A stretch of 64,000 nt of DNA, from the NCBI GenBank assembly GCA_037783545.1, contig JBBELK010001550.1, positions 1-64,000 on the forward strand. Direction: 5' to 3'. Position numbers and translations under genes: made by a program. The DNA is from Henricia sp. BOLD:AAB3569 (lineage: Eukaryota > Echinodermata > Asteroidea > Spinulosida > Echinasteridae). This document shows, piece by piece, positions 14,094-46,762 of the stretch. The notes under the pieces are model-generated. The model ran no database searches and was not told the origin of the DNA. It saw only the letters and a list, made by a program, of their open reading frames with translations. How positions within the stretch are numbered: the stretch's first letter is position 1; every line of letters starts with the position of its first letter.

Positions 14094-14755
14094 CAGCATT
14101 GGATATATTTTGGTATTATTGGAAATTTGATTATTTCATTTTTTACTATTAATTTCAATGAAATACGTCTTTTTAAGAGGCCAACTACATTTTTTGACAG
14201 CATTTTTTTAAGGTTGCAGGTAAATTGAGGGAAACTTAAGGTTCTGACAGCATATTATCGTAATTACACGTGAAACACACCAGATGACAAACAAATTTAG
14301 AAGCGTTCAAAACATAATTAGTCAACTGAGCATCTTTATTTCTTCTTTTAAATTCTAAATTACACAAATAAAATAACAAGTAGTAATAAATTATAAATGT
14401 TGTCTGCCAAAATTAAACAATCTGTTATACTATGGAAACCAAACTGAATAAGTAACACATATGTACCCAAAAGTGGCACAGGCAATAAACCATACCGTTT
14501 TTAAACTAAAAAATACTAACTATTGTGTTTAAGGCCGTTTGTGTTCTATATTTGACAATTCCAACATAATTTTTAACAACTTCTTTAAAATAAGTGGATT
14601 TAGCAGGAAAAATAAACAACAGTGACATGACAAAGCCTTTACAACAACAAAACTTTCAAAATACAGACCAATACATGTAGTGAGCATTGTTTATAACACC
14701 GAAAGCAGTTTGTAATAAGCACAACGCAGATGGGGAAGTTGTTGTGATACGCTCT
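14094..14755. other. AT-rich non-satellite DNA, no feature recognised
   Basis: The sequence is AT-rich and unique within the window, without open frames of note. It separates the satellite edge from the 54-bp minisatellite. The corresponding right-hand spacer (46440-46762) has similar composition, but I could not align the two convincingly. Confidence 0.5.
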
Positions 14756-14829
14756 CTACATGAACCATAGAGGGCAGATTATTATGGTACACCGACCACC
14801 TTACTGTTCATGGACCACATAGGGGAAAG

Positions 14830-15580
14830 ACTATTAGGGTACGCCACCTGGCGTACCTTACTGTACATGAACTATATGGACAATTTCTTAGGGTACGCCA
14901 CCCGGCGTACCTTACTGTACATGAACTATATGTGCAATTTCTTAGGGTACGCCACCCGGCGTACCTTACTGTACATGAACTATATGGGCAATTTCTTAGG
15001 GTACGCCACCCGGCGTACCTTACTGTACATGAACTATATGTGTAATTTCTTAGGGTACGCCACCCGGCGTACCTTACTATACATGAACTATATGGACAAT
15101 TTCTTAGGGTACGCCACCCGGCGTACCTTACTATACATGAACTATATGGATAATTTCTTAGGGTACGCCACCCGGCGTACCTTACTGTACATGAACTATA
15201 TGTGCAATTTCTTAGGGTACGCCACCCGGCGTACCTTACTGTACATGAACTATATGGGCAATTTCAAAGGGTACGCCACCCGGCGTACCTTACTATACAT
15301 GAACTATATGGACAATTTCTTAGGGTACGCCACCCGGCGTACCTTACTGTACATGAACTATATGTGCAATTTCTTATGGTACGCCACCCGGCGTACCTTA
15401 CTGTACATGAACTATATGGGCAATTTCTTAGGGTACGCCACCCGGCGTACCTTACTATACATGAACTATATGGACAATTTCTTAGGGTACGCCACCCGGC
15501 GTACCTTACTGTACATGAACTACATGTATATTGGCAATTTCTTAGGGTACGCCACCCGGCTTACCTTACTGTACATGAAC
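14830..15580 (+). repeat. 54-bp minisatellite, plus orientation, about 14 units
   Basis: The unit is GGGTACGCCACCCGGCGTAC followed by CTTACTGTACATGAACTATA and a short variable TGTGCAATTTCTTA-type tail, 54 bp in all. Each unit holds the perfect dyad GGTACGCC-ACCC-GGCGTACC. Because 54 is divisible by three, any stop-free frame stays open across the array. This produces a 260-codon frame of 18-residue repeats (14810-15592) and a second overlapping open frame. I regard both as by-products of the repeat length. The same unit forms an inverted array at 45405-46372. A diverged leading half-unit (14760-14830) also has a counterpart beyond the right array (46373-46425). Confidence 0.95.
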
Positions 15581-15596
15581 TATATACAGTGAAACC

Positions 15597-15732
15597 TGCT
15601 ACTAAGGCCACCTTACTTTGGTCCCAAACAAAATTTGTATAATGCTTAAGAAACCTTTATAAAGAGGCCACCTGTTTATAGTGGCCAGTTTTTTACGGTC
15701 CCGAGAGTGGCCACTATATTCAAGTTTCACTG
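15597..15732. mobile_element. 136-bp MITE with CAGTGAAAC termini and TA duplication
   Basis: The element begins CAGTGAAACC and ends with the inverted match GTTTCACTG. It is bracketed by TA at 15595-15596 and 15733-15734. Inner inverted copies of GGCCAC (AAGGCCACC and AGTGGCCACT) extend the imperfect terminal repeats. CAG-initial ends with a TA target duplication are typical of pogo/Tigger-like Tc1-mariner elements, so a non-autonomous member is likely. It sits exactly at the inner edge of the minisatellite. Confidence 0.65.
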
Positions 15733-15874
15733 TAGTGTAATTCGAGCAACATTTAGTGAGCCCGCCCTCTTGTGGTTATTGCATTGTTACTGCGGTGTAT
15801 GTCTATTGTGACATCACGTAAATGAATTGGAGATACACTGCAGTTTTTGTTAATTGGATTAGTCTATTAGGCAT

Positions 15875-16280
15875 GTTCCCATTGGACTTTCTTTTCCGCT
15901 GCCTCGCGGGAAGTTACCGCGACCTTCGGTAACATTCCTTCGTTTAATCTTCCCATGCGTTCCCATTTGCAATTGTTTTCAGTGCCCATGCGGAAAGCTA
16001 CCGCGACCTTGCAGTAAACTTTTGCCGTGCAGGCACATAGTTTACTGCATGGTCGTATTCATTTTACAGGGCGAAACTGTTCCCATTGGACTTTTCGATG
16101 GCCCTGTAAAACTCCCGCGGCCGAGCGGAAAGTTTCCGCGGACTCTTTTACCCTGTAAGTTTTACATCGTGGTCGCGGTAGCTTTACAGGGACGCTAATT
16201 CTCCGTGCGTCTCCATTGGACTATTTTGTTACTCTCCCGCACAACCACGGTAGTTTTACCAAAATTAGTCCAATGGGAAC
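15875..16280. mobile_element. MITE with 13-bp GTTCCCATTGGAC inverted ends
   Basis: GTTCCCATTGGAC at 15875 is matched by GTCCAATGGGAAC ending at 16280. A third copy of the terminal motif starts near 16080, so this is probably two related copies joined or one internally duplicated copy. Internal GC-rich blocks (AGTTACCGCGACC, AAGTTTCCGCGGACTC, GTGGTCGCGGTAGC) recur in both halves. It lies within the tail of the 54-bp minisatellite, because degenerate units resume after it. Confidence 0.55.
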
Positions 16281-16282
16281 CC

Positions 16283-16430
16283 ACTTATGCCTTACTATAC
16301 ATGAACTATAACATGAGCAATTTGTTAGGGTATGTGTATGCCGCCCAGTGTACCTTACTGTAAGTGAACCATAGTCATTAGAGGGCTGTGTGCTACAGTA
16401 CACCAGCAAGCAGACCTTATACACCTATCA
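16283..16430 (+). repeat. Degenerate 54-bp minisatellite units
   Basis: CCTTACTATACATGAACTAT, then GTTAGGGTATG, then GTACCTTACTG are recognisable decayed copies of the minisatellite unit at 14830-15580. They show that the MITEs at 15597-15732 and 15875-16280 inserted into or at the edge of the array. Confidence 0.65.
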
Positions 16431-16599
16431 ATTGTGTGCCCCACCTAAGAGGTGGACAATGTCACTTTTTGAGTAGAGTTTTCCACCCTAGGGGCAAATT
16501 TTGAGTGACAAAATCCCCACCCACGGGGCAAATGTGAGGTCATAAAATAATGTTGGCTCCGCCCCCGCACAAACCAATAAGTCCCACTTTTCGAGGGCT

Positions 16600-16757
16600 A
16601 CAATGTATGTAAAACTGCCGCGACTGAGCGGAGAGTTTTATAACGTGGTCGGGTAACTTTATAGCGACGCTAATTTTCCTTGCATCCCCATTGTACTAAA
16701 TTGTGTTACTCTCCCGCACAACCACGGAAGTTTTACCAAAAATAGTCAAATGGGAAC
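16600..16757. mobile_element. Second, partial copy of the GTTCCCATTGGAC MITE
   Basis: The segment CCCGCACAACCACGG and the following AGTTTTACCAAAAATAGTCA near 16712-16750 match 16237-16275. GCGACTGAGCGGAGAG near 16619 matches the GCGGCCGAGCGGAAAG block near 16115. The inverted end here reads GTCAAATGGGAAC. The left terminus is missing or decayed. Confidence 0.5.
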
Positions 16758-16789
16758 ACCACTTAAGACACACAAATCTAACCGCAGTC

Positions 16790-17215
16790 AAGGATAAGCT
16801 CCGACAGCATGTTGAGTTTACTGGGAATGTTGCCGACCAACTACATGTCCAGTATGAAGTGGCCAAACTCGTGTTACGCCTACTCAGGACTGCAAGGTGG
16901 TAGTGCAACTTTTTCATGTGTGGCATCATGACAGCATAAAGACAGCCACAAGACGGTTCAGGACTAACGGCAGGCCAACATCTGTATGAGCCACCAAATT
17001 GTATGCAAAAGTTTGTGCTGCTTGTTCTATAGCAGCCGATGATCTCTGCAAGGGGAGGGTGCCATGGTCATAGGTACGTGTAGCAAAGCAACAATGGAAG
17101 TGGCACAAAGCAGATTGAGCAGGGCAGGTAGAGCAGGGCAGATGGAGAGACCCGGCATCATGGTGTGGGCGAGTGTCATTGCGCATTCACAAACAGATAG
17201 GCCTATTGGATGAAT
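16790..17215 (+). pseudogene. Decayed Tc1/mariner (IS630-type) transposase remnant
   Basis: Translation shows two disconnected islands resembling IS630/Tc1-type transposases. Near 16930-16985 a segment reads as DSIKTATRRFRTNGRP, like the linker after the N-terminal helix-turn-helix domain, which is typically a basic stretch ending in GRP. Near 17140-17190 a segment reads as ERPGIMVWASVIAHSQ, like the conserved G-G-S/P-x-MVWG block in front of the second catalytic aspartate. The two are in different frames with stops between, and the region is far shorter than the roughly 340-residue family norm, so it is non-functional. An inverted, similarly decayed copy lies at 44400-44790. The assignment rests on motif memory only. 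Confidence 0.4.
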
Positions 17216-17329
17216 GTCATGAAACCACAGTCCTTCATTTTTCCGCCTCTACGGTGAGATCAACTTTTCTCGGTCTCTTGTCTATTTGTTGATTGTAACG
17301 AGTCTGTTGATGGAATACAGTAGTTTGCT

Positions 17330-17960
17330 AGTACATGTACATGTATCTGGCTCAGCACTGATGCAGTTTCGTCTTTCGGCAAGACAGGCCAACATCGCAG
17401 TTCAAGTAGAATCACAAGTCAACTGTGGAAGGAATCACAAAAAATGAGGTAACGCACACTCTTGTTACAACACCCACTGATATAAAGCTCCCCTGATATG
17501 TAAAGCTCTGCTTAATTTAAAGCTTCCCCATTACATGTAGCCATGTTAGCTATAGCGCTCTCTGGGTATAAACCTCAAATTATATGGTTTGGTTTCTTTA
17601 AAGATGTATTGTCCGTGCATTTTGGCTGTGTCACCCCAAAAAATAAATTGTTTTCTTTAATAGATTTTTTTCTAGAAACATTGGCTTTCAAATAAGACAT
17701 CAGTGAAGAACAATGACGAACGTTTAGTTATTTAACAATTACTGTCAATATATATTTCAAATTATTGGTGGTCTGCCAATAATCAACTCACTGCAAGGCC
17801 GACTTGCCCAAGTCCGACTTCTCATGTTCGTCTGAATTGGGAAACATACAGTGCACCCATGGACTAATGGCCTGTCTCCACTAGTCCAGAGGGTGCACTG
17901 TACACTGCGCATTACCGGCCAAACACGGTAAGTCAGACTAGGGCATGACTAGGGCAAGAC
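17330..17960. repeat. Left arm segment mirrored at 43665-44230
   Basis: Several blocks match the reverse complement of the right arm: the run around ATAGCGCTCTCTGGGTATAA (17552) with its match near 43985; GTCCGTGCATTTTGG with its match near 43930; AACGTTTAGTTATTTAACAA with its match near 43870; and CTAGTCCAGAGGGTGCACTG with its match near 43650-43680. By eye the similarity is about 75-85% with indels. No coding potential is seen. Confidence 0.75.
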
Positions 17961-18154
17961 ACAGAAACTACCATATAAAAAATGGCATTTTAAAAGTATG
18001 ATTTCCTTTTTTAAAATTAAAGTAAATGCTTTAGAATCGAATTTACTGAGAACCACGGACAATATAACTTTAAGAGCACTACAAATAATGAGAAGTTATT
18101 GTATTAAGATTTTAAGTTTAGGATGAAAGCACATTTAAAGAGCTAGAGTCCCCC

Positions 18155-18560
18155 TTGACGAACCCAAAGATTCCAGACTTAAAGATTCCAATTATTCAGT
18201 CACCGCGACTAACTCAACTGTTTACCATTACCAACTCGACTCGAACCAACTCGACTGCTGTGTGTACTCGGAGCACAACGGTCGAGTTGGTAAAATGGTC
18301 GAGTTGGTTCAAAGGCGAGTTGGGATATGGGAACCTGTCTAATGTTTAACACGTGCCAGTGCACTCGACATGAACTTGGCGCATGATAAGGAGCGTGCAA
18401 AGCAGATCTTCCCAAGATTTGGTCGAGACCAAATTTTGACTTGCATCTCTCTTACTGGTTGACTACTGAAATATGACAGCCAAGTGGGGAATCCACCAAG
18501 ACGATACATAGAGTGAGTAGCACGCATTTTAAGAAGAAATAGGCATTCAAAGATTTCTAA
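18155..18560 (+). mobile_element. Element of the CAACTCGACC family
   Basis: AAAGATTCCAATTATTCAGT is followed by several CAACTCGAC units, then by inverted GGTCGAGTTGG units, then by CCCAAGATTTGGTCGAGA and TAGAGTGAGTAGCACGCATT. The same order occurs at 28085-29400 (+) and, reversed, at 27610-28060. This is therefore a dispersed repeat whose middle carries divergent arrays of the motif. There is no coding sequence. Confidence 0.6.
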
Positions 18561-19095
18561 GCGAGATGGACTGTAGCTAGTGTTACCGTGCTCATTTCAG
18601 TTCGTTGATAAGAAAATAGGAGGAAATGTACGTACTCTACTGATGATAAATGTTTTCCGTGCCTTCTTATGATGGTGTCGGTGAATTGATTCCGAGTCCT
18701 GTGTGGGGTATACGAAAATACGCCGTCTTTGTCATCAAGTTCAGTCTTTTTCACCTGCAATAATTAGGGTATAACAAAATATAACGTTTGTAATTTAAAG
18801 CTGTAGACATTTAACACTACACGTCTCTGTGTGAAGAATGTACAAGTCATACATGTACATCACCTATTAAGGCTACCACCTCATCATGTACAAATCATGA
18901 GTACAGAGATGTTTCTGCACCAGCTGCATGCATATTCGTGATCGATCCTATGCGTACGTACGCCTGTCCTCCGGATGGCTCCGGCGGTTAGATTTTTTGA
19001 ATGGGAATCACCATCGCCAGCGGCGCCTTTGCCGGGCGTTCGCCTTCGATATTCATTTTCGCTGTGTACATTTATATATTTAATTCTGTACATAT
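18561..19095. other. No feature recognised
   Basis: Mixed-composition DNA without convincing open frames, terminal repeats or tandem structure. Confidence 0.4.
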
Positions 19096-19109
19096 ATGTC
19101 AGTCATATA

Positions 19110-19300
19110 TGTCCGTCAAGGTGCGTCGTTTTTTAAAGATGGTGCGTCAAAATTTGGTAGTTTGAAGCGTCATTTGACAAGAATGGTCCGTCAAAAAAAA
19201 TGACCGAGGGTGCGTCATGTTACCCAAAAGGATGACGCTCCTGTGCCAGGACATTGACGCACCTAGTACCTTTCCCGGGGGTCCGAAGGTGCGTCCTACA
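19110..19300. repeat. Cluster of GGTGCGTC motifs in both orientations
   Basis: GGTGCGTC or close variants (GGTCCGTC, GAAGCGTC) occur near 19120, 19140, 19167, 19187, 19209 and 19288, with an inverted GACGCACC near 19256. Spacing is irregular, so this is a degenerate motif cluster rather than a clean tandem repeat. Function unknown. Confidence 0.45.
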
Positions 19301-19317
19301 ATTGATAGGTGCATTAA

Positions 19318-19420
19318 AGGCACAGGCTCGTCAGCAATACGCGCGCGCCATATTCGTGCCTTAAAATACGCACCTTAATGCCTTTGCTATGGCGCTCGCA
19401 TTGCTGACGAGCCTGTGCCT
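19318..19420. mobile_element. 103-bp foldback MITE, AGGCACAGGCTCGTCAGCAA ends
   Basis: Both ends carry AGGCACAGGCTCGTCAGCAA as an inverted repeat, and the inner part is also self-complementary, so the whole element can fold. It is flanked by TTAA on both sides (19314-19317 and 19421-19424), as with piggyBac-type insertions. The second copy at 32664-32796 does not show a clean TTAA pair, so the superfamily is uncertain. Confidence 0.7.
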
Positions 19421-19734
19421 TTAAGTGTCAATTAATAAAACAACCATCGGGAAGTGCAGCGCAGCCAAATCACTTCATCTGTGCGTACTAACACTAGCGG
19501 CACGGAAAGGACTGCGTACGTGTAAATGTATTTTTGCCCGATTAACGATCAGGCTTGATACAAGCCTGTCCACAATTGGGCATTGGGCATGCCCAACTGT
19601 AATTTATTTTCACGTAGGAAAGCACCCTCTTACGCCCAGAATGATTAAAATGGCAACAAGAAAACCTGTCGTCGAGTTTGCACGTGGGAGAACATTTTGG
19701 CTTAAAAAACGGTGTTTGTAAGTATTTTTTTTGT

Positions 19735-19850
19735 TCAATCATTTTCCAATAATGGACATCTCAAACCACTGCAGGACACAACTAGGAGGAAATTTTTGGG
19801 TGTGATTCCAATTGAGGCAAAATGACAACCACTCACATGAAAAGGGTGTG
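19735..19850 (+). mobile_element. Solo terminal fragment of the 39918-40708 foldback
   Basis: CCACTGCAGGACACAACTAG and AAATTTTTGGGTGTGATTC followed by AAAATGACAACCA match the right terminal repeat of the element ending at 40708, and in reverse complement its left end at 39918. Only one end is present here. Confidence 0.7.
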
Positions 19851-19894
19851 CACAGACTAGCCCATGTCGTTGGTCGTAGTACCTTGGGAGTCAG

Positions 19895-20040: not shown

Positions 20041-20089
20041 TCACCGCCGACACACTTTTGTATGGAGGCGGGCATGACAAAAACACAAT

Positions 20090-24570: not shown

Positions 24571-24580
24571 GTGGGACCAT

Positions 24581-25067: not shown

Positions 25068-25084
25068 GTGGAACCATGGAGAAG

Positions 25085-25498: not shown

Positions 25499-25607
25499 TC
25501 AGTTGGCTATACGAGAATTGAAGTCACGCGCGGGCCGCCATTGTACCTCACGAACAATACTTGGCCTATAGACTGCTCCCCGTTCCATGCGATCGCTTGC
25601 ACCCTTA

Positions 25608-26632
25608 CAAAAAAGTTCTATAGAATTCTATAAAAAAAAATCCTATAGAATCTCTATAAACTATTCTATAGATTTTCTTTATAGAGTTTTTATAGAGTTT
25701 TTATAGAGTTTTTATAGAAGTCTTCTATAGGTGTTTATAGAGTTTCTAAAGAAAAATGGGCCATAATTCTAAAGAAACGCTATAGGATAATTCTATAGAA
25801 TTCTATAGAAAAACATTATCTAATTCTATAAACTTTTGGCAATAGATTGTATAGAACATTTGATAGAAGTCTATAGAACATTTGATAGAATTCTATAGAA
25901 AATCGGGTGGAATTGTATAGAAAATCGGATTGATTCCTATAGAACATTTGATAGAATTCTATAGAAAATCGGATGTAATTCTATAGAAAATCAAATGGAA
26001 TTCTATAGAAAATCGGATGGAATTCTATAGAAAATCGGGTGGAATCAAATAGAAAATCGGATGGAATCCTATAAAAAATCGGATGGAATCCTATAGAAAA
26101 TCGGATGGAATCCTATAGAGAATCGGATGGATTCCTATAGAAAATCGGATGGATTCCTATAGAAAATCGGATGGATTCCTATAGAAAATCGGATGGATTC
26201 CTATAGAAAATCGGATGGATTCCTATAGAAAATCGGATGGAATCCTATAGAAAATCGGATGGAATCCTATAGAAAATCGGATGGAATCCTATAGAAAATC
26301 GGATGGAATCCTATAGAAAATCGGATGGAATCCTATAGAAAATCGGATGGAATCCTATAGAAAATCGGATGGATTCCTATAGAAAATCGGATGGATTCCT
26401 ATAGAAAATCGGATGGATTCCTATAGAAAATCGGATGGATTCCTATAGAAAATCGGATGGATTCCTATAGAAAATCGGATGGAATCCTATAGAAAATCGG
26501 ATGGAATCCTATAGAAAATCGGATGGAATCCTATAGAAAATCGGATGGAATCCTATAGATAATCGGATGGATTCCTATAGAAAATCGGATGGATTCCTAT
26601 AGAAAATCAGAAGGAATTCTATAGAAAAATGA
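25608..26632 (+). repeat. CTATAGAA-rich region with 21-bp minisatellite
   Basis: It starts CCCTTACAAAAAAGTTCTAT, passes through irregular TTCTATAGAA motifs, and then settles into about 28 copies of the 21-bp unit CTATAGAAAATCGGATGGAT, with T/A variants at the unit junction. Runs of GGATTCC-type and GGAATCC-type units alternate in blocks. The CCCTTACAAAAAAG border recurs inverted at 32277, the end of a related CTATAGAA region. Confidence 0.9.
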
Positions 26633-26746
26633 ATGAAAAAAAAGCTTCGTGGTGTAAATCTTAAGGAAATTTGTCAGTGAAATTATTTTAAAAACAAACA
26701 GTACAGGCATTGATCTAGCTCTGTGAACAAGGAGTAACTTGCTTAT

Positions 26747-26981
26747 GGGTCTTTCTATAAATTAGGGGTCTAATTTTGGTGTCCCCCGTTACATTTTACA
26801 TCTTGTTTTTGTAAATTCAGGACACATTCTTTAAATACTCAAAGCGTTTGTACCTAAAGTACAATTCATACAAAATGGTTTAAAAGCCATTTTAATGATT
26901 TGTGTACGAAAAATAACATATCAGGTGTAACGGGGGACAATAAATGTCACACTTTTAGACCCCTAATTTATAGAAAGACCC
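26747..26981. mobile_element. 235-bp MITE with GGGTCTTTCTATAAATTAGG ends
   Basis: GGGTCTTTCTATAAATTAGG at the left is perfectly inverted at the right end (CCTAATTTATAGAAAGACCC). An inner pair, GTCCCCCGTTACA and TGTAACGGGGGAC, extends the fold. No target duplication assigned. Confidence 0.75.
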
Positions 26982-26984
26982 TTT

Positions 26985-27609
26985 GTGCCATTTTTGTGGG
27001 TCTTGAATGAGACTGCAGTTAAAGGGGCTATGTCACGGTTTGCGCATGCTAACTTTTTCCAAATTTGTCACCGGGTTTTGCATAAATCCTATTCAATATT
27101 TGCCATCCCTTATAATTCTTTAGTAATTTTGGCAGTGGTGTACTCGTCAACGTCCAGGATGTCCTAATGCATTACTTTTTACTTGAAATCGCACTGTTTG
27201 CCGTATTTTTAAGCCGCCAAACATCGACATCACCAGATGTGCGGCCGTCGTTAAAAAGAGAGTTTTTTTATCCCATCAAAAAACTCGACAAAACATGACA
27301 GAAACGGCATCGAATGATATAAATGACGTGGTTGGATATACAGTAATTTGTTTAACCTTGTTTTCCATCAAAACTGACATGCTTATTTGGTCCCGACAGC
27401 AATTTTACAGCATATCTTCTGTCCTTGGAAAGACACCGTGGCCGCCACCGCTGTACGATTTTGTTTTCCAGACACTGAAACTTACATCCACATCTGGAGA
27501 CGAACAAAAACTTACACCGACTTAAATCTGGTGTAGATACCTTGGCATGGGTCCTCACTTCACTTCTAAGCTGTTTTCCAGTGGACGAGGATGGAGTGGT
27601 GGGTCTGGA
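26985..27609. other. No feature recognised
   Basis: Moderately AT-rich. Open frames of up to 76 codons show no family resemblance. Confidence 0.4.
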
Positions 27610-28060
27610 TTATAGCTACGGTACATCACACCTAGAAATTTGCGAATGCCTATTTCGTCTTAAAATGCGCACTACTCACTCGTCTGTCATATCTCGGTAG
27701 TCAACCACGAAAAAGCAATAACGTCCAAATGAAATGTTTCGCACAAAACGTCCGATCTCGACCAAATCTTGGGACGATCTGCTATGCGTGTTCCTGATAC
27801 TTCAAATCCATTAATTCGAGTGCACCGGCGCATATTATTTATTAGGCAGGCTCCCGTATCCAAACTCGCCGTTGAACCGGCCAACTCGACCATTGTGCCA
27901 ATTCAACCATTTACCAACTCGACCGTTGTGCATTGAGTACCACAGCAGTCGAGTTGGTTCGAGTCGAGTTGGTTCGAGTCGAGTTGGTGATGGTAAACGG
28001 TCGAGTTAGTCGTGGCAACCGAATTATTGGAATCTTTAGGTTGGGAAACCAGACAATAGC
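27610..28060 (-). mobile_element. CAACTCGACC-family element, left half of central inverted repeat
   Basis: Read on the minus strand, this runs from AACCTAAAGATTCCAATAAT through CAACTCGACC arrays to CCCAAGATTTGGTCGAGATC and GAGTGAGTAGTGCGCATTTT. That is the same order as 28085-29410 on the plus strand. It is the uninterrupted version and supplies empty sites for two insertions in the right half. Confidence 0.75.
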
Positions 28061-28192
28061 AGTGCGCCACCTAACAGCCGCGAAGGGTATGTCTGGTTTC
28101 CCAACCTAAAGATTCCAATCATTCGGTTGCAACGATCGACTAGCTAACTCGACCGTTTACCATCACCAACTCGACTGCTGTGGTACTCAATG

Positions 28193-28438
28193 AGGGGCAG
28201 ATCCAGGATTTTAAAAAGGGGGTGGAGCGTGAAATTTTTAAGCTTGAAATGCTGATAATGAAATAGCGAGCGCGTAGCGCGTAGCCCTAACGGCTTCTAG
28301 ATAGATTCTAGATGCTCTGTGGTGCAACATTTAACCACTTTAAGCAGGAAAAGTGCGCACAAAAAGTGGATTTTTTTTTGGGGGGGGGGGGGGGGGGAGG
28401 AGGCGTGCACCCCCCACGCACCCCTGGATCAGCCCCTG
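28193..28438. mobile_element. 246-bp hAT-like MITE with TCAATG duplication
   Basis: The ends AGGGGCAGATCCAGG and, inverted, CAGGGGCTGATCCAGG are flanked by TCAATG at 28187-28192 and 28439-28444. The left-half copy (near 27930, inverted) reads TACTCAATGCACAAC without the insertion. CAGGGG-type termini suggest hAT, although 8 rather than 6 bp would be usual. It carries a run of about 20 G at 28379-28397. Confidence 0.75.
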
Positions 28439-28656
28439 TCAATGCACAACGCTCGAGTTGGTAAATGGTTGAATTGGCACAATGGTCGAGTTGGTTCAAC
28501 GGCGAGTTGGGATACAGAACCTGCCTAATAAATAGCACTCGAGTTAATGGATTTGAAGTATCAGGAACACTCAAATCAGATCATCCCAAGATTTGGTCGA
28601 GATCGGACGTTTTGTGCGAAATGTTTCATTTGGACGTTCTACCAAGATGCGACAGA

Positions 28657-29287
28657 TAATGCTGTAACCGACGAACCGAACGGGATTTTACCGAACTTGG
28701 CACTTCCGAACCAAACCGGACCAAACCGAACATTTCACTAAGTTCGGCTGTTCGGGAGTGATTCACTTTGGATTTCACATCTTGCGTATTTTAATTGTAA
28801 ATGTGAAATAGCTGGCTTCCTAAATGTCAAAAATGCACTCAACATTTCACAACATTGAAACAGAAACACAGCGATACTTGCTTGCGTGTACTACAAACAA
28901 TCGTCGGAAAATGAACCCCATTGGCTAGAAAAAAAATACCATCTCGAGCAATCTCACGACGGTTTGCACGTGGTACATGTATACCGTACAAATCAAATGC
29001 ATGCACACCGCATGTTCGGACAGTAGCACCGCGGATTCCATTCAGTTTCCCGGGTCAATTTCATCACACCAAAGCCGTTATCTTGATCATTACGACAAAT
29101 AAATCTTGTTAAGAGAGCTAGTTAGTTTGAAGATTTTTTAAAAATACATACTTTATAAAGAAAGCTAGCTGCACGTGCGTGATCACTTTCAACCCACACT
29201 GCCGGTAATACTTGCCGAACCCAAACCGAACAAATGTTCGGGAAGAAATTGTCGAACTTTTACCGAACCGAACCCGAACTTCGTTGC
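28657..29287. mobile_element. 631-bp CCGAAC-rich insertion with CGACAGA duplication
   Basis: CGACAGA at 28650-28656 and 29288-29294 brackets the insert, and the copies at 18450-18530 and 27700 lack it. Both ends are rich in CCGAAC or ACCGAAC motifs (28668-28735 and 29213-29280), but I see no simple terminal inverted repeat. The interior has no recognisable coding region. Confidence 0.6.
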
Positions 29288-29449
29288 CGACAGACCAGTA
29301 GATAATCCAACAGTACGATAAATAGAGTGATGAATAGTACGCATTTTCAAACGATATAGGTATTCGTAAGTTTCTAGGTGTGATGTACGTGGCTAGGTCT
29401 GGATGGCCCTTGGTTAGTGTACGTGTGTATGTACGTACCTATATAGGGT

Positions 29450-31055
29450 GCAGGTCAACTCGACCGTTTTCCAACTGGACTCGAACCAATTCGACCGTTG
29501 TGCGTTTAACCGGAGAAGTCAACTCGACCGTTGTACTAACTCGACTGTTGTCCAACTCGGTATTTTTTTAGTTTATGCCACAACACGAATTTAAGAAACC
29601 ATAATGGATTTGTTTTTCAGATACATTGAACACGGATGTACTGTGGGTGAATTTATATACAGGGGAATCGATAGCTTATTCAATTCTAAGATATACTTAA
29701 TTTCCACTGACACTTCCGTCACAAATGTTGCATTTCTGAGATAAATAAATAATAAAATGACTGCATAAAGTAATGCACAAAATGACGCGGCGAGCGGTCT
29801 GTGCATAAGCGCGACAACAGAGGGCGCTGCGCGCGTGTGAATAGTTATCTTGTGCACCAACTGAAGGCAATTTTTAAAGAAGAAAACATGATTTTTCTAC
29901 AGAAAAGCAACATTTGCGACAAAAGTGCAAGTGGGGAGTATATCTTAAAATTACATTATGTGTTGATTCCAGAAGGTAATTTACTTAAAATCTTTGTTCA
30001 ATGTATACGAAAAAATACCAAAATAATTATTGGAATCGATAGCTTGGACGATTTTAGAATTGGAATACTTACACGCATTTCCGTCGCAAAGGCTTAGTTT
30101 TAGAGAAAAATCACGAAAAGAATATAGCATATGATTGCACGCAAAGCAGCCGGCCAGAAACTAAACGGATCATCACGCGCACGCCCTCTTTCTTCGCTCG
30201 CTTCACACACGCAGTTCGCAGCAGTTTCACACACATTTGTATGGAGGCAAACGTGGAAAAAAATAATAAATTGTCATGGAAATGCAACATTTGCGACAGA
30301 AATGTCAATGGAAAAGGAATTTCAAAATCATCAAAGATATATCGATTCCAATATTCCAATAAATTTTAGTTGTGGCATAAACTAAAAAATACTTCCAACT
30401 CGACCGTTGTCCAATGTTCAACAGGAAACTAAGTTTGCGGCACGAGGTTGCAAGGTGAAAGCGATGTCGCGATGTCGAATCATCAGCGAAAGTGACATAA
30501 ATATAACGTCAAATATTTCCCTGTAAACCTTTGCGCAAGCTGAATTTGCTGAAACTAATTGAACTTTCTGCAATTTCACGGCACGAAAAATTTTGCTTTC
30601 GCGTTTTGCTGCAACGTGTAAACATCTTTGCACGCACGCGTATAGGGGTGCCATCGGTTTGTGCACGTTTCGGCGCAATGCGCGTGATTCAGCCCATTAT
30701 CTGCATGGCAAATCGGCCATCGTACATGCAGGTAAAACCCGTATCAGGTTTTACAGCTGATTATTCATTTTTGTACAAAAGGTAAATATCCGTGCTTGGT
30801 AAATCGCTGCGAGAAAGTCACAACTCTGAACTCACAAACGTGGAAGGAGTAGTGAGCACAGCGGTCGAGTTGGTTCAAGTCGAGTTGGCAAACGGTCGAG
30901 TTGACTCTACGACGTAATTGAAGTCGAGTTGGTCGACGGACGAGTTGGTTCAACGGTCGAGCTGGTACAACGGTCGAGTTGCTGGTACAACGTATGGTCG
31001 AGTTGGTCCGAATCGAGTTGGCAAACGGTCGAGTTGGCAAACGGTCGAGTTGACT
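29450..31055. mobile_element. Composite element bounded by GTCAACTCGACCGTTT ends
   Basis: The left end starts GTCAACTCGACCGTTTTCC, and the right end (inverted) starts GTCAACTCGACCGTTTGCC followed by several more GGTCGAGTTGG units (30860-31050). The interior includes AAGCAACATTTGCGACAAAA (29905) and GGAAATGCAACATTTGCGAC (30278). These are parts of the same dispersed family seen at 20090-20275 and, inverted, at 38855-39330. No protein is recognised. Confidence 0.55.
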
Positions 31056-31800
31056 GTAAACCCGTATATATACCGGTACCGGTACGTACGTGCAGAATGC
31101 ACGCTTTGCTACACAAAAAACAAAGGATTCTGCTGCTGTCATTTGAGCAAATATCCACAAAATAATGTATAAATAATTTCAGTTTTATGCAATTATTACA
31201 CATAATACCAACATATTGTAAGAATAATGGCTGATGGAGATGATTCAGGCATGATTCAGGTGAGAGGATTCGGCAAATTTTGAATGACCCACTTCTAAAC
31301 TGTACACACTTTGACAGAATATAATGTAAGTAGTCTGGTGCTGTATACATACACATACTAATTTGTTAAATGTTGGTGTTAGGCACCAGACGAAAGAGTA
31401 TAGACTGGTTCCCGGTCTATACAAAACTTGACAAGGTGCATGTAGGTCATAGGAAATTGGAAATGTTATACTTTAATTTGGCATATTTTTTTTGTTTTAT
31501 TGAGATGTGTTTTGGGGAAGAGTTGATATGTTGATCATGCAGATTTGTTTGGGTAAGTGCAGTTTTGGTAGAAAAACCTCAAAATTAGGAGAGAGAAAAT
31601 TTAAAGATTTTGTAACTGAAACACTAGATTTTTGTTCAGCCTGTTTATGTGTTTTGTACACAAGGTCATCTGATGAAGCCATGATCAACTATTCTTTTTT
31701 TTTCAGAAAAAAATACAGCTCAAAAGATTGTGAATAACTCTGTCAAGCAGATTTTCCCAAAAACATTAATTGCTGGACAAATCTTAGAGACGAAGCTTCA
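31056..31800. other. Island segment without confirmed feature
   Basis: It contains a TATA-like GTATATATACC (31063) and an ATG in good context (31227) reading MADGDDSGMIQ up to a GTGAGA donor-like site. It also has a polypyrimidine tract plus CAG (31686-31706) followed by a 32-codon open frame. These could be chance (see findings). A truncated TAGACTGGTTCCCG motif lies at 31402. Confidence 0.3.
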
Positions 31801-31804
31801 AAAT

Positions 31805-32277
31805 TAACTTAAATTCTATAGAAGTGTTCTATAGAAACATATAGACATTCTGTACAAAGATCTGCTATAGAATTGTTCTATAGAATTATATAGACAAAAA
31901 TCGTTCTCTATAGTCTATAGACAATCTCAAAAAGGTTCTATAGAGGAGTGTCAAAGTTTCCTATAGACGTTCTATATAATTCTATAGAAAAAATCATTCT
32001 CGATAGTCTATAGACAATCTCAAGAATATTCTATAGAGGAGTGTCAAAGTGTTCTATAGAATTCTATAGAAAAAATCGATCTCTATAGACTATAGACAAT
32101 CTGAAAAAGGTTCTATAGAGGTGTATCAAAGTTTGCTATAGAAGTTCTATAATATTCTATAGATATAATGATTTTCTATAGACGATCCAAAAAAGTTCTA
32201 TAGAAAAGCGGCAATTCTATAGAGTTCTATAGAACTATATAAAGCGTTCTATAGAATTCTATAGAACTTTTTTGTAA
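31805..32277 (-). repeat. TTCTATAGAA-rich region, mirror of 25608-26632
   Basis: Dense TTCTATAGAATTCTATAGAA motifs occur in about 105-115-bp super-units (GTTCTATAGAGGAGTGTCAAAG and relatives recur three times). It ends ACTTTTTTGTAAGGG, the inverse of the start of the left copy. The flanking 32281-32420 also matches 25365-25607 inverted (for example GCCATTGTAC and TACACTGGATGAAG). Confidence 0.8.
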
Positions 32278-32663
32278 GGGCATGCCACTCAACACATGAC
32301 GTAACCATGACGTAACTAGTGAAGACAGTATGACCAGTCTAAGCAATGCATTGTATTAGGTGGTGTACAATGGCGGACGTTGGCATCAACGTCATTGCTT
32401 CATCCAGTGTATACATATATGTCACCCATGCAGCTATCATTCACGTGATGTGTATCACGTGATAAGAAACACGTGGGCGATGATAACCGTTTCCCTTCGT
32501 TTATTTAGGCATGATAATTGATATACATGTACAATGTAGTTGAATAAACCTAACCACACCATTAGCTACGCGATGAAGGTCAGAAATAAAGGTTGCCTCG
32601 CCGTTATGTTTTTAGCATCGCATATATAATTATGTCAGAATTTTGCATATTTCTAGCATTGTA

Positions 32664-39911: not shown

Positions 39912-39917
39912 GGTACC

Positions 39918-40708
39918 CCTTTCATACAGTGGATTGTTGTCATTTTGCCTCGAAATTAGAATCACACCCAACTATTTCCAGCTAGTTGTTTCCTGTAGTG
40001 GTTTTAGATATTCTTGATTAGAAGACAAATAAAAAGCACTACTTACATTGCCGTTTTTGAATCAAAAACGTCTATTTCCGACAATCTTCGACGAAGAAAT
40101 TTCTCGGACTCCTTATCACGATAAAAACGATTGCAAACGTGTAGTTGTGCATTGACGGACGCCCAAAGAGAACGTCAAACGAAACTGTACATTGTATGCC
40201 GCGCCCTATAAATGCGTGTGACATAAGAGCGCCACCCGTACTCTCTTTGGGCCTCCGTAGATGCACACCAACTGTACGTTCGCAAAAAAAGACCACGTCG
40301 AACTTTGGCGTGACTCCACACTAGAATCGATTAGAATGGGTTGTCTTAATTGGACACAACAAGAAATCGCAGTGTACACGTATGTTTTCATACGAAAAAT
40401 GGAATCGATCCGGATTAGAATTTTGATTCTTTTTTGGAATCGGAGTCGACTCCGAAAATGCTGTAGCGCCCCCAAGCGTTACGCCTAGCCAACTTTGTTT
40501 TAGCTGGTCACATCGTAACAACAGGTTTTCTCGTCGAAGATTGTCGGAAATAGACGTTTTTTATTGAAAAACGGCAATGTAAGTAGTTCTTTTTTGTTTG
40601 TTTTCCAATCATGGACATCTGAAACCACTGCAGGACACAACTAGGAGGAAATTTTTGGGTGTGATTCTAATTTGGAGGAAAAATGACAACAATCCACTGT
40701 ATGAAAGG
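39918..40708. mobile_element. 791-bp foldback with about 185-bp terminal inverted repeats
   Basis: The left end CCTTTCATACAGTGGATTGT is mirrored exactly at 40708. Similarity continues through ACATTGCCGTTTTTGAATCA and AACGTCTATTTCCGACAATC to about 40100 and back from 40524. A second inverted pair inside (GCCCAAAGAGAACG near 40170 and ACTCTCTTTGGGCC near 40237) suggests a nested foldback. There is no coding capacity. A solo end occurs at 19735-19850. Confidence 0.8.
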
Positions 40709-41221: not shown

Positions 41222-42042
41222 GCACGTACATGATAGAAAGGGTACGAGTTGTCCCTGGTACGATATGTCCCGGGCACGAGTCGTCCTGGGTACGAGTAGT
41301 CTTGGTGCAAGACGATACTGCGTGATATTTGTCACTGACCGCCGCACGCTAACCAACATTCACCGACATTCGCCAAGAGAGGGCGCCATACACTGTACTA
41401 TGAGGACAGGGAACCAGTCCACGTCCGTGCTCTGCAGTATCGTCTTGGGACAAATCCTGAATCGCTCGGGAAATTCCGAGCGCATTCCAAGCATTGCTCA
41501 TTATGCCATGCATACCTATGACGTAGGGCTTATTAACATATTTCAAGCCGAGCGCTGTGAAGTCTGGTACCTGTACGTACGTCTTAATTATCAAACAGGA
41601 AAAGCACACGTTATCGCGTCAGACAAGTCCGTGCTTTATTTGTTTTTAAAAGAAAAAATATGAAAATGTGGCAATGGGGCCAGTTTTTTTCCCAATGGAT
41701 TCAACGAACTTCGGCTTTGGTTTGTCGGCCCGGCAACCAAAGCCGTTATTTGGCTGAACCCGTACGCTGCAGAAACGTGTCTTTATTATGATTTCAGACT
41801 GCGAAAACCGTACGGCACTCGCTGGCTAGCTAGCGCTATACGCGGACGAGACTGCCATGGGTCCTGTGTTTGAAGAAAAAACATAATTTTTGTTACTACT
41901 AAAATCACGTTTCATCGCCAAATTTAAAGATAGTTTTCATGATTGGTAAACTGTTGCAAATAGTTTTATCCCCCTGTGTGATTGAAGATATGCATGATTA
42001 AAATTAACCTGAGCAAAAACCAGCTTCGAACTTCGTCTAACC

Positions 42043-42073
42043 ATGGAGGAAGGAAAGTCTTTCCTTCCTCCAT
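42043..42073. other. Perfect 15-bp-arm palindrome
   Basis: ATGGAGGAAGGAAAG and its exact inverse are separated by a single T. It is a purine/pyrimidine strand-asymmetric hairpin of unknown role. Confidence 0.65.
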
Positions 42074-42116
42074 ATGGTCTAACTTTTGAGAAAACAGTCA
42101 AAAAAGGGTTTGCAGT

Positions 42117-42322
42117 CATTTCGCCCCAAAACCACTTTGCCCTGAACCATTTCGCCCTGAACCTTTTCGCCCTGAACCTCGGCCTGTGCACAAAGTGGTT
42201 TTGGAGCGAAGTAGCATGTGGGCGATGTAGTGTTTGGACGAAGTGATTTGGGGCGAAATGGCACTCAGGCAAAGTGGTTTGGCGGCGAAATGGCACTTGG
42301 GCGAAATGGTTTTGGGGCGAAT
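42117..42322. mobile_element. Foldback rich in GGGCGAAATGG motifs
   Basis: ATTTCGCCCCAAAACCACTT at the left is mirrored by GGTTTTGGGGCGAATT at the right. About eight CGCCC or GGGCG-plus-AA units occur, direct in the left half (CGCCCTGAACC) and inverted in the right half (GGGCGAAATGG). Confidence 0.65.
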
Positions 42323-42504
42323 TGAATTTTCGTCTCATGAGGCGAAAACTAATTGTTTTACTGATTTCTCAAAGACTATAGCACTTCAGACAAAACCATT
42401 TCAGGGGAAGTTTTCTACGGTCATCGTGTTTATATTGTGTAAGTTAGGCGTAAATCTGTGAACATTTCTGATTTTCGAGAATTAGTGTCTACAAAAATGT
42501 TCTG

Positions 42505-42975
42505 ATTTTTTTTAAAACAAAAGGTCATGCCTATTTGTTTCCGCAAATGATCGACGTCTCGCAGCAACTTCGGGAAAATCAAAAGTACAATGATGAAGAA
42601 AAATGATTCTCTAGCTACACACAAGTTACAACAGATTTTAGAAATACTTTGGTTGCAAAAATTAACCAAGCGGTTGCTGTGTTATGCTTGGTACAGTTCG
42701 TCCATCTCCGTGTGGAATATACAGTGAATTTACCCACTAAAAATTATGACGCTGGCAAAGGGCAGGCTTTAATTTGTGGGCGACAAACAGCACCAGTAGC
42801 ACACGTTTATTAGAATACAATTTTAAACAAATAGTATCCCCATGAACAGTAGACAGTTTCACAAATCTGTCTCGCAAACACGAACCTGGACACGATCGAA
42901 CTTCTTTTATTTCGGTATATTTAGCAGGCATCGCATTTTCATTATTCCCGGTCCGGCACACGCAAAATTCTGCAA
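42505..42975 (-). mobile_element. Diverged copy of the foldback spacer (37380-37850), inverted
   Basis: Matching blocks in reverse orientation include TTTCCGCAAATGATCGACGT, ACAAGTTACAACAGATTTTA, TTTGTGGGCGACAAACAGCA and TTTCACAAATCTGTCTCGC. Both copies can encode the peptide PKLLRDVDHLRKQ-GMTF in the matching orientation. Neither frame is long, and no family was recognised. Confidence 0.65.
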
Positions 42976-43480
42976 AATGTGTGAAATGCCGTGCGGCACG
43001 TACAGAAACGGTCTCGAAATCGGTCGGAAAATTGCACTTTCTCTAAGAATGTAAGTCAGTCATTGTACCCAGCTAAAACCTCGATAGGCTACTCTTGTAC
43101 CTCAGATGTATTTGTGGCCATTTTGAGATTACAACAGTTGCTTTTTGGGGGCGTGTGTGGATCGGGAATTCCACCGCGGGGCGCGGGCCGCGCCAAGTAT
43201 GTCTATAGCTCGGCAGCGGACAATCTGAGCCGTTCTTTTAAATTTTACGTTTATGATTCTCCCCAATTTGTAACACACTTGATTCGGGTATAACGTATAT
43301 ACAAGTGGCTATCTTTTTTGGAGGATATATGGGACTATGATTTAGTAGGAAGGAAATAACCCTAGTTGTGCAGGCACAGAAAGTTGCCAGGCTGGCATGC
43401 TCATTATGTGGAACTCTGTTGACCTCTACAATGCATATGTATAAGCTTAGGTTAGAGGTCACACAGTGTCACATACCAAC
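42976..43480. other. No feature recognised
   Basis: Mixed composition. The open frame at 42991-43293 lacks recognisable motifs. Confidence 0.35.
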
Positions 43481-43664
43481 GTTCGACAAATGTCCCAAGA
43501 CGATACTGGAGACTGGTGTGTATGGCGCCCTCTCTTGGCGATTGTCGGTGAGTGTTGGTTATCGCGCAGTACGCGTCTTGCACCAAGACTAGGGTACGAG
43601 TTGACCAGGGTGTCTTTTTTTGGTTTCAAGTTGTCCCGGGTTCGATCGCTGCTCCAGTGCACCC

Positions 43665-44230
43665 TCTGGACTAGTGGCCTGTCTAATCTCGTTTTTTTTC
43701 TGTCTCAGAATTAGAAGATAACTAGTTACACAGGCAGCTAGTCCACGGGTGTACTGTACATTGCCCATTTTAGACCAAACACAAGAAGTCAGACTTGGGC
43801 AAGTCTTTGCCTTGCATTGAGTTGATTATTGGCGGAACGCTAATAATTTAATATGTAATTGTTAAATAACTAAACGTTCATCATTGTTCCTCGTTGATTT
43901 CCAATTTGGAAGCCAATGTTTCCAGGTGCCACAGTCCAAATGCACGGACAATACATCTTTAAAGGAACCAAACCAAATAATTTGAGGTTTATACCCAGAG
44001 AGCGCTATACATGTAGCTAATGTGGAAGCTTTAACTTATGCAGAGATTTACATGTACATATCCGAGGAGCTTTATATCGGGGGGGGGGGTGTTGTAACAA
44101 GAGTGTGTGGTACATGTACTCATATTTATTCGTTATTCCTTCCCCAGTTGATTCTACTTGAACTGCGATGTTGGCCCATCTTGCTAAAGGACGACACTGC
44201 ATCAGTGCCGAGCTAGATAGTAACAAACTA
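43665..44230. repeat. Right arm segment mirroring 17330-17960
   Basis: Reverse complement of the left-arm segment with indels. Shared blocks include GTTAAATAACTAAACGTTCA, GGACAATACATCTTTAAAGG and TTTATACCCAGAGAGCGCTA. A G-run of about 10 at 44080 is specific to this copy. Confidence 0.75.
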
Positions 44231-44399
44231 CGGTATTCCACCGACCGACCTGTTACAATCAGCAAATAGCCAAGAAACCAAGGAAAGTGGATCTCACGGA
44301 AGAAACATAATCAGCAACATGTAAAGAGGATAATGGGGAGGTGGAAGACACTGGTTTCATGACATGTACAGAAGAACTACTTGGACTGCAACCAATCAT

Positions 44400-44790
44400 T
44401 CATCCAATAGGCCCGTCTGTTTGGGAATGCGCTATGACACCCGCCCACATCATGATACTGGGTCTCCCCATCTGCTCTGCTCAATCTGACCTGTGCCACT
44501 TCCATGGTTGCTTTATCACACGTATGACCATGGCACCCTCTGCTCGCAGAGGTCATCCACTGCCATAGCAACACGTAATTTTTCAATACAATTTGGTGGC
44601 TGATACATGTACATACCGTATGTTAGCCTCCCGTTATTCCTGACTTGTCTCGTAGCTCTCATGGCGCCGTATACGAAAATGCTGCACTACCACCTTGCAG
44701 TCCCGAGTAGACGTGGTAATGCGAGGTCGGCCACTTCATAGTTAGTAGGCAACATTTCCAGTGACCTCAACCTGCTATTGGAGCTTGCTT
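44400..44790 (-). pseudogene. Decayed Tc1/mariner-type transposase remnant, inverted copy
   Basis: Read on the minus strand this aligns with 16790-17215 (for example CACCAAATTGTAT, AGGGTGCCATGGTCATA and GGAAGTGGCACA). Near 44446-44490 it can be read as GRPSIMMWAGVIAHSQ, the same block as ERPGIMVWASVIAHSQ in the left copy. Both resemble the G-x-MVWG motif of IS630/Tc1 transposases. Stops and frameshifts interrupt it. The resemblance is by eye. Confidence 0.4.
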
Positions 44791-45294
44791 ATACTTGACT
44801 CATGGACATGATACTGTCTGGCAGCATAGAAAACTGACATTCAAGTGACTTTCTTTTCTGTTTTTAAAATCTGAGGGTACTCCAACAGTTTACCCGGGCG
44901 TGCCTCAAAGATACTTTAACAAACTGTCCTAATGGTTCATTTAGGCCAAGAAAAAGAATACCTTTGTCTCCTATTAAATCAAAAAAATATTCAAAGTGGA
45001 TAGGTGGGAAATATCTGTTTATTTTGCTCTAAATTTTTCAGCCAAACATTTTACGGTGGGATGACGGTCAGTAATTTTTTTTACCACTTGCACATTACAA
45101 CACTGCAAATATACAAGAGTGAGCCACTTTTTCATGTTTTTAAGGGGTAAAAATGTTGGCTTCAGGTTTTTGAATTGTTAGCAAAAAAATATAGGTTATG
45201 CATGATTTTTTAAGTCGGAGTGGGTAATAGGAAACACGGCTATTTTTTTTTTGGCCTTATAGTAATGCACCTACATTGTATCAATTAATGCGAA
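44791..45294. other. No feature recognised
   Basis: AT-rich DNA. Nothing coding or repetitive stands out. Confidence 0.4.
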
Positions 45295-45402
45295 ACACCC
45301 ACACACCCCACCCTGCCCCCCTCCCCCCTCCCCCCCCCTCCCCTCCCCTCTCCACCCCCCTCCCCTCCCTACACCCCCTCCCCCCTCCCCTACACCCCTA
45401 CG
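45295..45402. repeat. C-rich low-complexity tract
   Basis: About 100 bases composed almost wholly of C with scattered T and A (CCCCTCCCC-type). The complementary strand has many G-runs of three or more and could form quadruplexes. It borders the inverted minisatellite directly. Confidence 0.85.
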
Positions 45403-45404
45403 AA

Positions 45405-46372
45405 ATTGCACATATAGTTCATGTACAGTAAGGTACGCCAGGTGGCGTACCCTAAGAAATGTTCAATATAGTTCATGTACAGTAAGGTACGCCGGGTGGC
45501 GTACCCTAAGAAATTGCACATATAGTTCATGTACAGTAAGGTACGCCGGGCGGCGTACCCTAAGATATTTTCCATATAGTTCATGTACAGTAAAGTACGC
45601 CGGGTGGCGTACCCTAAGTAATTGCACATATAGTTCATGTACAGTAAGGTACGCCGGGTGGCGTACCCTAATAAATTGCACATATAGTTCATGTACAGTA
45701 AGGTACGCCGGGTGGCGTACCCTAATAAATTGCACATATAGTTCATGTACAGTAAGGTACGCCGGGTGGCGTACCCTAATAAATTGCACATATAGTTCAT
45801 GTACAGTAAGGTACGCCGGGTGGCGTACCCTAATAAATTGCCCATATAGTTCATGTACAGTAAGGTACGCCGGGTGGCGTACCCTTAGAAATTGCACATA
45901 TAGTTCATGTATAGTAAGGTACGCCGGGTGGCGTACCCTAAGAAATTGCCCATATAGTTCATGTACAGTAAGGTACGCCGGGTGGCGTACCCTAATAAAT
46001 TGTCCATATAGTTCATGTACAGTAAGGTACGCCGGGTGGCGTACCCTAATCAATTGCCCATATAGTTCATGTACAGTAAGGTACGCCGGGTGGCGTACCC
46101 TAAGAAATTGCCCATATAGTTCATGTACAGTAAGGTACGCCGGGTGGCGTACCCTAAGAAATTTGCCCTCATAGTTCATGTACAGTAAGGTACGCCGGGT
46201 GGCGTACCCTAATAAATTGCCCATATAGTTCATGTACAGTAAGGTACGCCAGGTGGCGTACCCTTAGAAATTGCACATATAGTTCATGTACAGTGAGGTA
46301 CGCCGGGTGGCGTACCCTAAGAAATTTGCCCTCATAGTTCATGTACAGTAAGGTACGCCGGGTGGCGTACAT
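45405..46372 (-). repeat. 54-bp minisatellite, minus orientation, about 18 units
   Basis: Reverse-complement array of the unit at 14830-15580, each unit again with GGTACGCC-ACCC-GGCGTACC. Two units near 46150 and 46320 carry a one-base insertion (AAATTTGCCCTC), which shifts the frame. This explains why the 154- and 256-codon frames differ, and argues against coding function. Confidence 0.95.
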
Positions 46373-46762
46373 GTACTTTAATAGACTGCCCCTATGGTTA
46401 ATGAACAGTATTTTGTTTACAGTATATTTTTGTTAGTCCACATAGCGTATACACACTTTATATGTGAGTTGTATGTATCTACGTGTGTCTATGCAGATTT
46501 GTTTACCAAATAAAGTGACTTCAGAAAATTACTGTGTTCTTTTGATTACTTTTTTACATAAATTTGAGTTTTCTCTCTTTGCACCAATGAAATTCAGTTT
46601 TTCGTTATTAATTTCATTTGTTGGAACCCGAGGTTCGTGACAATTCATTAATTGCACTATAATTTCGGTTATTTACACATTTTTCACAGGATAGTTTAAT
46701 TATTCTTATGTAAAAACTGAAATTCCGGTTGAATCAAAAATTGTGAGGACAATATCAGTTTG
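46373..46762. other. AT-rich spacer between minisatellite and satellite
   Basis: The first about 50 bases (ATAGACTGCCCCTATGGTTA) are the mirror of 14790-14840. The remainder is unique AT-rich sequence up to the first satellite bases GGCAGACAAAC at 46763. Confidence 0.5.

Follow-up and report, generated by a model that had tools for sequence, protein, structure and literature searches.

The 64,000-nucleotide stretch of Henricia sp. DNA analysed here (the window; contig JBBELK010001550.1, or C1550, of a 740.7-Mb genome, G000) contains, embedded in a tandem satellite, a 32676-base segment (14092-46767) that we interpret as one copy of a giant, apparently gene-free (non-autonomous), foldback-like DNA transposon, a reading to which we assign a probability of about 0.9. 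Copies of this element share 36-bp terminal inverted repeats, inverted subterminal arms of ~3 kb that contain arrays of a 54-bp unit, and an interior that is colinear between copies. Their exact ends, fixed 4-bp target duplication and empty sites identify a class II element with terminal inverted repeats. The parts recognised in the window are listed by position and strand.

1-14091 (+): 193/205-bp satellite, the target, left side
14088-14091 (+): TAGC, the four satellite bases adjoining the left end; judging by position, the probable target duplication, its partner deleted
14092-14127 (+): left terminal inverted repeat, 36 bp, AACAGCATTGGATATATTTTGGTATTATTGGAAATT; the true left end
14196-14254 (+): two terminus-like GACAGCAT motifs in subterminal position (element positions 105 and 155)
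14754-15585 (+): left 54-bp tandem array, 13 cores by pattern count, outer part of the left arm
16286-16438 (+): degenerate 54-bp units between left array and arm (score reached by 0 of 500 shuffles)
16786-17900 (+): left subterminal arm, 1.1 kb, from self-comparison, genome search and arm comparison
25601-32279 (+): separate repeat of 6.68 kb that lies within the element; not present in the five compared copies, with many copies elsewhere in the genome
36552-38537 (+): separate element of ~2 kb that lies within the giant element, its inverted ends ~660 bp long (94%)
41298-43591 (+): presumed further insertion, absent from the five compared copies
43655-44800 (-): right subterminal arm, 1.1 kb, in the orientation opposite to the left arm
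45396-46410 (-): right 54-bp tandem array, 18 cores by pattern count
46411-46767 (-): right subterminal region, incomplete; it stops ~97 bp short and lacks the right terminal repeat
46763-62899 (+): 193/205-bp satellite, the target, right side

Copies elsewhere in the genome provide the principal evidence for this reading. In a genome search with the left arm, in which the best 40 of 2428 candidates were scored, 15 other contigs carried a left-type arm (93-99% identical to that of the window) together with an inverted right-type arm ~9-45 kb away, the right-type arms matching the left query at 68-77% by BLAST. An earlier note on this DNA had suggested that the island might be a very large element with multi-kilobase inverted ends, and had set beforehand the check that further copies should share its outer ends; such copies were found. 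Five of them were read through, single bases at the joints between stretches aside, and all are colinear with the window in chained blocks that cover 19225 of the 32676 window bases in C1381 (mean identity 97.0%), 16982 in C1198 (94.4%), 18045 in C319 (94.0%), 11367 in C129:944248-964408 (89.6%) and 7418 in C182 (89.7%). The C10 locus and further C129 loci have the whole of the retrieved host flank in common (at least 2.2-2.9 kb) and occur as both inverted and direct copies; they thus represent one insertion multiplied by duplication, as large host duplications or haplotype copies, which we counted once.

The termini of these copies are sharply defined. Ten compared left ends begin at window base 14092 with the same sequence, five of the ten being the one duplicated insertion, and the right end of all five read-through copies is the 36-bp terminus in inverted orientation, with two mismatches in C319. 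Exact termini were also present at both ends in eight of nine further loci, the left terminus of the ninth (C1467) being damaged, so that 13 copies read at both ends have terminal inverted repeats at exact ends, one of them with the two mismatches. A genome-wide pattern search for the 36 bp, allowing up to three mismatches, returned 70 termini (59 exact, 35 per strand) against none for the reversed control. Facing termini delimit 20 intervals, one of 2.9 kb and 19 of 14.3 kb or more, up to 52.3 kb. These lengths include nested insertions, five of the 20 interiors were read through, and three of the intervals, one on C10 and two on C129, come from the duplicated insertion. C827 has another left terminus, 4.4 kb beyond the first, and unpaired termini are present on C525, C1030, C1325, C1777, C43, C194 and C861.

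Insertion by transposition is further indicated by the flanks. Among the 13 loci with both outer flanks read, 11 have an exact 4-bp target duplication and C1381 matches at three of the four bases. For the empty sites, the two host flanks were joined with one copy of the four bases, and the resulting 44 bp were sought in the available flanks, including those of the same locus. This yielded an exact site in uninterrupted satellite for six of the nine satellite insertions (C1198, C150, C142, C1760, C823 and C1584). The best site differs at one base for C182 and at three bases for C1381; no site was found among the available flanks for C523 and four non-satellite loci. Left-type ends additionally contain GACAGCAT-like motifs at about +105 to +112 and +149 to +161, both of which recur as C/T variants in the related left-type ends L031 and L033, and only the first in C1b.

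The left end of the island lies at 14092, two bases outside the limits of 14094-46762 that had been given. The flank variant GAATCTATAGC beside this left end is also present in two other satellite units of the window. The right limit is a broken end without a true terminus, and the last five element bases, GGCAG, are common to the satellite. Since the inverted 36 bp lie 97 bp beyond this stop in other copies, the right end of the window copy is best seen as the product of a deletion. Past the break the satellite resumes 83 bp further on by comparison with 57 of the 81 intact units, and 84 or 94-96 bp further on by comparison with the remaining 24. The sequence suggests that the right tip and ~83-96 bp of satellite were probably lost together at the 5-bp microhomology GGCAG.

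Between the terminus and the interior, the two sides of the element have diverged from each other far more than the copies have. In the window, the outer arms are identical at 788 of 967 ungapped positions (81.5%; Kimura two-parameter distance, 0.216). Across copies, and outside the 36-bp terminus and the arrays, left-right arm identity is 80.9% (36 pairs), compared with 99.0% among left arms (nine arms, 36 pairs) and 98.9% among right arms (four arms, six pairs). The nine left arms were the best hits of the genome search plus C319, and their 99.0% therefore overstates the likeness of the family, in which other left arms go down to 93% and bodies range from 89.6 to 97.0%. The contrast between 80.9% and ~99% indicates that left and right arms parted as lineages earlier than the copies did. 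The description of the island as ancient accordingly suits the divergence of its arms and does not suit the copies, whose bodies are still 89.6-97.0% like that of the window. Long inverted ends with an internal tandem array are as expected of foldback elements; near-identical inverted ends, also typical of them, are not seen here.

The arrays behave differently from the arms beside them. From 3 to 39 of the 54-bp cores occur per end (20 ends counted), and array units are 94.5% alike between sides, against 95.5% and 94.2% within sides. This equal likeness across sides, next to arms that differ by 19%, reflects array homogenisation or constraint. A variant unit is shared by the outer edge of both window arrays (alignment, read by eye), and a possible degenerate unit lies inside the right array at about 44874-44943, a weak match whose score 16 of 500 shuffles reach. 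The shared outer variant unit and the inner degenerate unit make the two sides look like two copies of a single composite segment. The stretch that separates array and arm lacks left-right homology (323 of 500 shuffles reach the score). As a separate observation, the 54-bp unit (14834-15585, 45396-46370) holds a perfect hairpin, GGTACGCC-ACCC-GGCGTACC.

The earlier note had gone further and described the entire island as an imperfect giant inverted repeat, with mirror-image pairs nested in strict order about a centre near 28.07 kb. This description applies to the outer ~3 kb on each side, and fails for the inner nested chain. The outermost pair consists of the two 54-bp arrays in inverted orientation (14754-15585 and 46410-45396, about 91% identity in the self-comparison), and the second and third pairs are in fact one 1.1-kb arm (16786-17885 and 44800-43721). 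Likewise, the satellite does run in the same direction on both sides of the island. For 17950-43650, the best observed nested chain has a score of 1546.9; random placements average 1639 and equal or better it in 602 of 1000 cases, in disagreement with the proposed colinear order beyond chance; for the whole island including the outer pairs, 9 of 1000 placements reach the chain score. Masking the arrays left 65 inverted and 65 direct matches. The supposed fourth pair (19.74 and 39.92 kb) involves one arm of a small inverted-repeat element (39918-40708), to which a relative at 19692-19847 matches in both orientations, the direct match at 40564-40690 being the better one (84.8% versus 74.5% inverted). 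The remaining two pairs (25.4-26.6 with 31.8-32.4 kb, and 27.6-28.06 with 28.09-29.4 kb) both lie inside the 6.68-kb repeat at 25601-32279, where they correspond to its CTATAG-rich ends and its inner fold-back, and the centre near 28.07 kb is the centre of that local fold-back. Because the inner chain is within random expectation and the tested interior pairs belong to nested or repeated elements, we rejected an inverted repeat spanning the whole island. Separately, inner inverted pairs in nested position were seen in two other copies, namely 650 bp at 80.8% and 391 bp at 88.2% in C182, and 180 bp at 73.3% in C1381; these could be small inverted-repeat elements.

The larger extra segments of the window relative to C1381 (25602-32279, 36375-38577 and 41298-43591) contain the nested elements and the presumed insertion listed above. 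The 6.68-kb repeat, with its CTATAG-rich ends and internal fold-back, has matches reaching both ends in contigs such as C605, C141, C842:624527-631803 and C1146 among the best 25 of 11153 candidates; its long matches in other contigs are mostly 85-98% identical, and it may be another large mobile element. Segment 36375-38577 holds the ~2-kb element with 660-bp inverted ends, which also occurs in C1198 in the same part of the giant element at 99.4% identity and in the opposite orientation, perhaps through inversion between its ends.

No gene was recognised in the window or in the five read-through copies. Comparison of the window with C1381 gave no coding signal, the longest shared open run being 124 codons versus 144 in controls that were reversed or complemented. 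Of 47 indels, 13 had lengths divisible by three. None of the 48 open frames searched against Pfam (20 of the 50 listed in the window, 18 of 43 from other copies, eight of the C1111 end and two in host flank) had a match at the curated cut-off, and we therefore rejected a coding island for the window frames submitted. Frames over the 54-bp arrays were left out of this search; they are long on both strands because the 54-bp unit, 18 codons, is stop-free. Rfam detected no element RNA at the gathering score, and five weaker microRNA-like hits were attributed to chance or to palindromic repeats. The arm had no match to phages, and a 39-base piece of the 54-bp unit had none to viral or prokaryote contigs, in line with an animal repeat.

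A source of transposase was sought at related ends. The terminal ~170 bp of the left end (75-77% identical to the window) are common to C849, C112 and C450, the interiors of which differ, although C849 and C112 are 95% alike over 6 kb; right-type ends occur on C1111 and C1172. In the five related-end stretches of 4-6.8 kb that were read (L031-L033, L054 and L055), no transposase was recognised: L031-L033 have no frame of 130 amino acids, the eight frames of C1111 (L054) have no Pfam match, and the frames of C1172 (L055) were listed only. The genome has 19 P-type RNase-H matches (PF21787). None of them is enclosed by paired termini, and just one, on C156, shares its contig with a listed terminus, at a distance of 48 kb; on this basis a Galileo-like member of the P superfamily was rejected. 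Helitrons and Helentrons have neither target duplications nor terminal inverted repeats, and were set aside since the element has both. Nor do the data match a Polinton/Maverick, the target duplications being 4 bp rather than 6 bp and the frames searched having no Pfam match to polymerase, integrase or capsid. Target duplications of 4 bp fit Ginger1, Ginger2 and several others in the available part of one survey (PMC10045372). In the flank of the C1467 copy (L043:546-2132), two frames of 243 and 276 amino acids, without a Pfam match, are Polinton-like in appearance, as judged by eye.

Several other origins of the island were weighed against a transposon. The earlier note's second suggestion was that an old inverted duplication had become trapped in the satellite and was then shredded by small transposons. 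Such a duplication of host DNA, or a palindrome derived from a hairpin, would account for arms that are 81% alike and for the many small inverted-repeat elements in the island, and the two arms of the ancestral element may indeed have arisen by duplication. Such an event would not place a unit with an identical first base, terminal inverted repeats, 4-bp target duplications and empty sites at many loci, and the outermost 660 and 352 bp of the window copy, outside the arrays, lack left-right homology (62 of 500 shuffles reach the score, and an outer-flank control reversed without complementing scored better, 18/500). We consider it highly improbable as the origin of the island. Chance insertion of a dispersed repeat (54-bp array plus 1.1 kb) twice in opposite orientations is scarcely credible: the left arm is indeed a multi-copy repeat, but the same left-right pairing recurs in the same relative orientation on 15 other contigs, and the DNA between the arms is colinear with the window in the five read-through copies.

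The spread of the copies mainly through segmental or satellite amplification, rather than transposition, finds some precedent in the shared host flank of the C10 and C129 loci and in the many copies located in satellites. Against it, the target duplications differ among copies (CTCG, GAAA, GCTG, GTTT, GGAA, ACAG, CAGC), as does the position in the satellite unit, and the flanks of six insertions were not recognised as satellite; amplification as the main route is therefore very doubtful. A decayed self-encoding giant element, of Polinton/Maverick type or another superfamily, with its genes lost or undetected, is unlikely, if less easily dismissed, because the element falls in the size class of known giant elements (PMC6431247, in the passages available) and two large copies (C842 and C523) lie outside the interior reading. 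The core is nevertheless colinear at 89.6-97.0% in five copies without a coding signature relative to C1381, the frames searched had no Pfam match, and the 4-bp target duplications contrast with the 6 bp of Polintons (PMC10045372).

Some results weigh against the interpretation as a giant gene-free transposon. The window copy itself has neither a right terminus nor a second target duplication, C523 has termini yet no target duplication (two of four bases), and at least one insertion was multiplied by host duplication. The GACAGCAT-like motifs are absent from the two right-type ends examined. No transposase was found in the five read-through copies or the five related-end stretches; small exons or a non-Pfam family would escape the frame search, outside which 30 of the 50 window frames and 25 of the 43 other frames lie, and C842:839867-892197 (52 kb) and C523:98991-146070 (47 kb), whose interiors are outside the reading, could carry genes.

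We infer that the giant element is mobilised in trans. A putative transposase encoded elsewhere would bind the terminal repeat, and perhaps also the subterminal motifs or arrays, cut out or copy the ~15-50 kb unit and insert it at staggered 4-bp cuts; other element types with the same terminal ~170 bp might be served by the same enzyme. In the window, such a unit would have entered the 193/205-bp satellite, where it now holds the nested 6.7-kb repeat and the 2-kb element and would have lost its right tip. More tentatively, and as a conjecture that we regard as possible rather than probable, the copies could form a gene-free cut-and-paste-type family of ~15-50 kb elements, moved by a large-DNA transposase of unassigned superfamily and landing or surviving preferentially in satellite, with the 54-bp arrays helping to pair the ends.

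The nearest described element that we found, in the passages available of its source, is Tetris, a foldback element of Drosophila virilis (PMC4079207). Like the present element, Tetris is non-autonomous, with no conserved open reading frame and no transposase found, and has inverted ends with a tandem-repeat domain of variable copy number and termini common to another element type. Its array unit is ~220 bp rather than 54 bp, the passages describe no unit of tens of kb (PMC4079207), and by comparison the arms here differ by 19% and facing termini are up to 52 kb apart. Galileo, a foldback-like member of the P superfamily, similarly has long, internally repetitive inverted ends but, in contrast, an identified transposase; binding sites inside its ends have been measured and proposed to offset their length (PMC3688188, partial text). 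Polinton/Maverick, Teratorn, Terminons and large Helitrons reach tens of kb as well, but are described with genes in the available text (PMC6431247). Satellite-like arrays borne by oyster Helentrons are another case of a mobile element carrying a short tandem array (PMC7492417), from which the element here differs by its terminal inverted repeats and target duplications, which are not rolling-circle traits. A search of titles and abstract openings in a partial literature collection, which other wording might extend, returned no description of a gene-free transposon of this size.

Tens of kb without recognised genes would be an unusual size, the giant eukaryotic elements covered in the available part of PMC6431247 carrying genes. 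In nature, DNA transposition is held to become less effective as size grows, and the same source reports that transposition efficacy falls significantly above 6 kb of cargo and that artificial constructs moved 100-200 kb. If the interpretation holds, the natural size limit of transposition could be tested in one genome, as could the contribution that long, repetitive subterminal arms make to the pairing of distant ends. The insertions of the element also constitute datable events within satellites.

Ten of the 16 insertions with flanks read lie in tandem satellite, a description of these loci and not an enrichment over the satellite share of the genome. Besides the window copy in the 193/205-bp satellite, seven copies (C1381, C182, C150, C1760, C823, C523 and C1584) are hosted by a 273-bp satellite, C1198 by a 297-bp satellite ~71% like the 273-bp one, and C142 by a 186-bp satellite, the assignment of C1584 and of short flanks being based on BLAST to other flanks. 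The six flanks not recognised as satellite (C319, C129, C10, C842, C597 and C1467) span ~180-2500 bp, on one side only for C10 and C1467. At 5270-5330, 60-90 bp of the window satellite are 72-82% like the 273-bp satellite, which points to a segment shared by both satellites. Near the right edge of the window, a ~400-bp inverted-repeat element with ends CCGGTGTC...GACACCGG lies between the last satellite units (62895-63300, by eye; array spacing 602). Finally, at 63590-64000, the satellite joins onto the middle of a eukaryotic 18S ribosomal RNA gene, where the array may either interrupt an rDNA unit or adjoin a pseudogene, and the Rfam match is good from about model position 1260.

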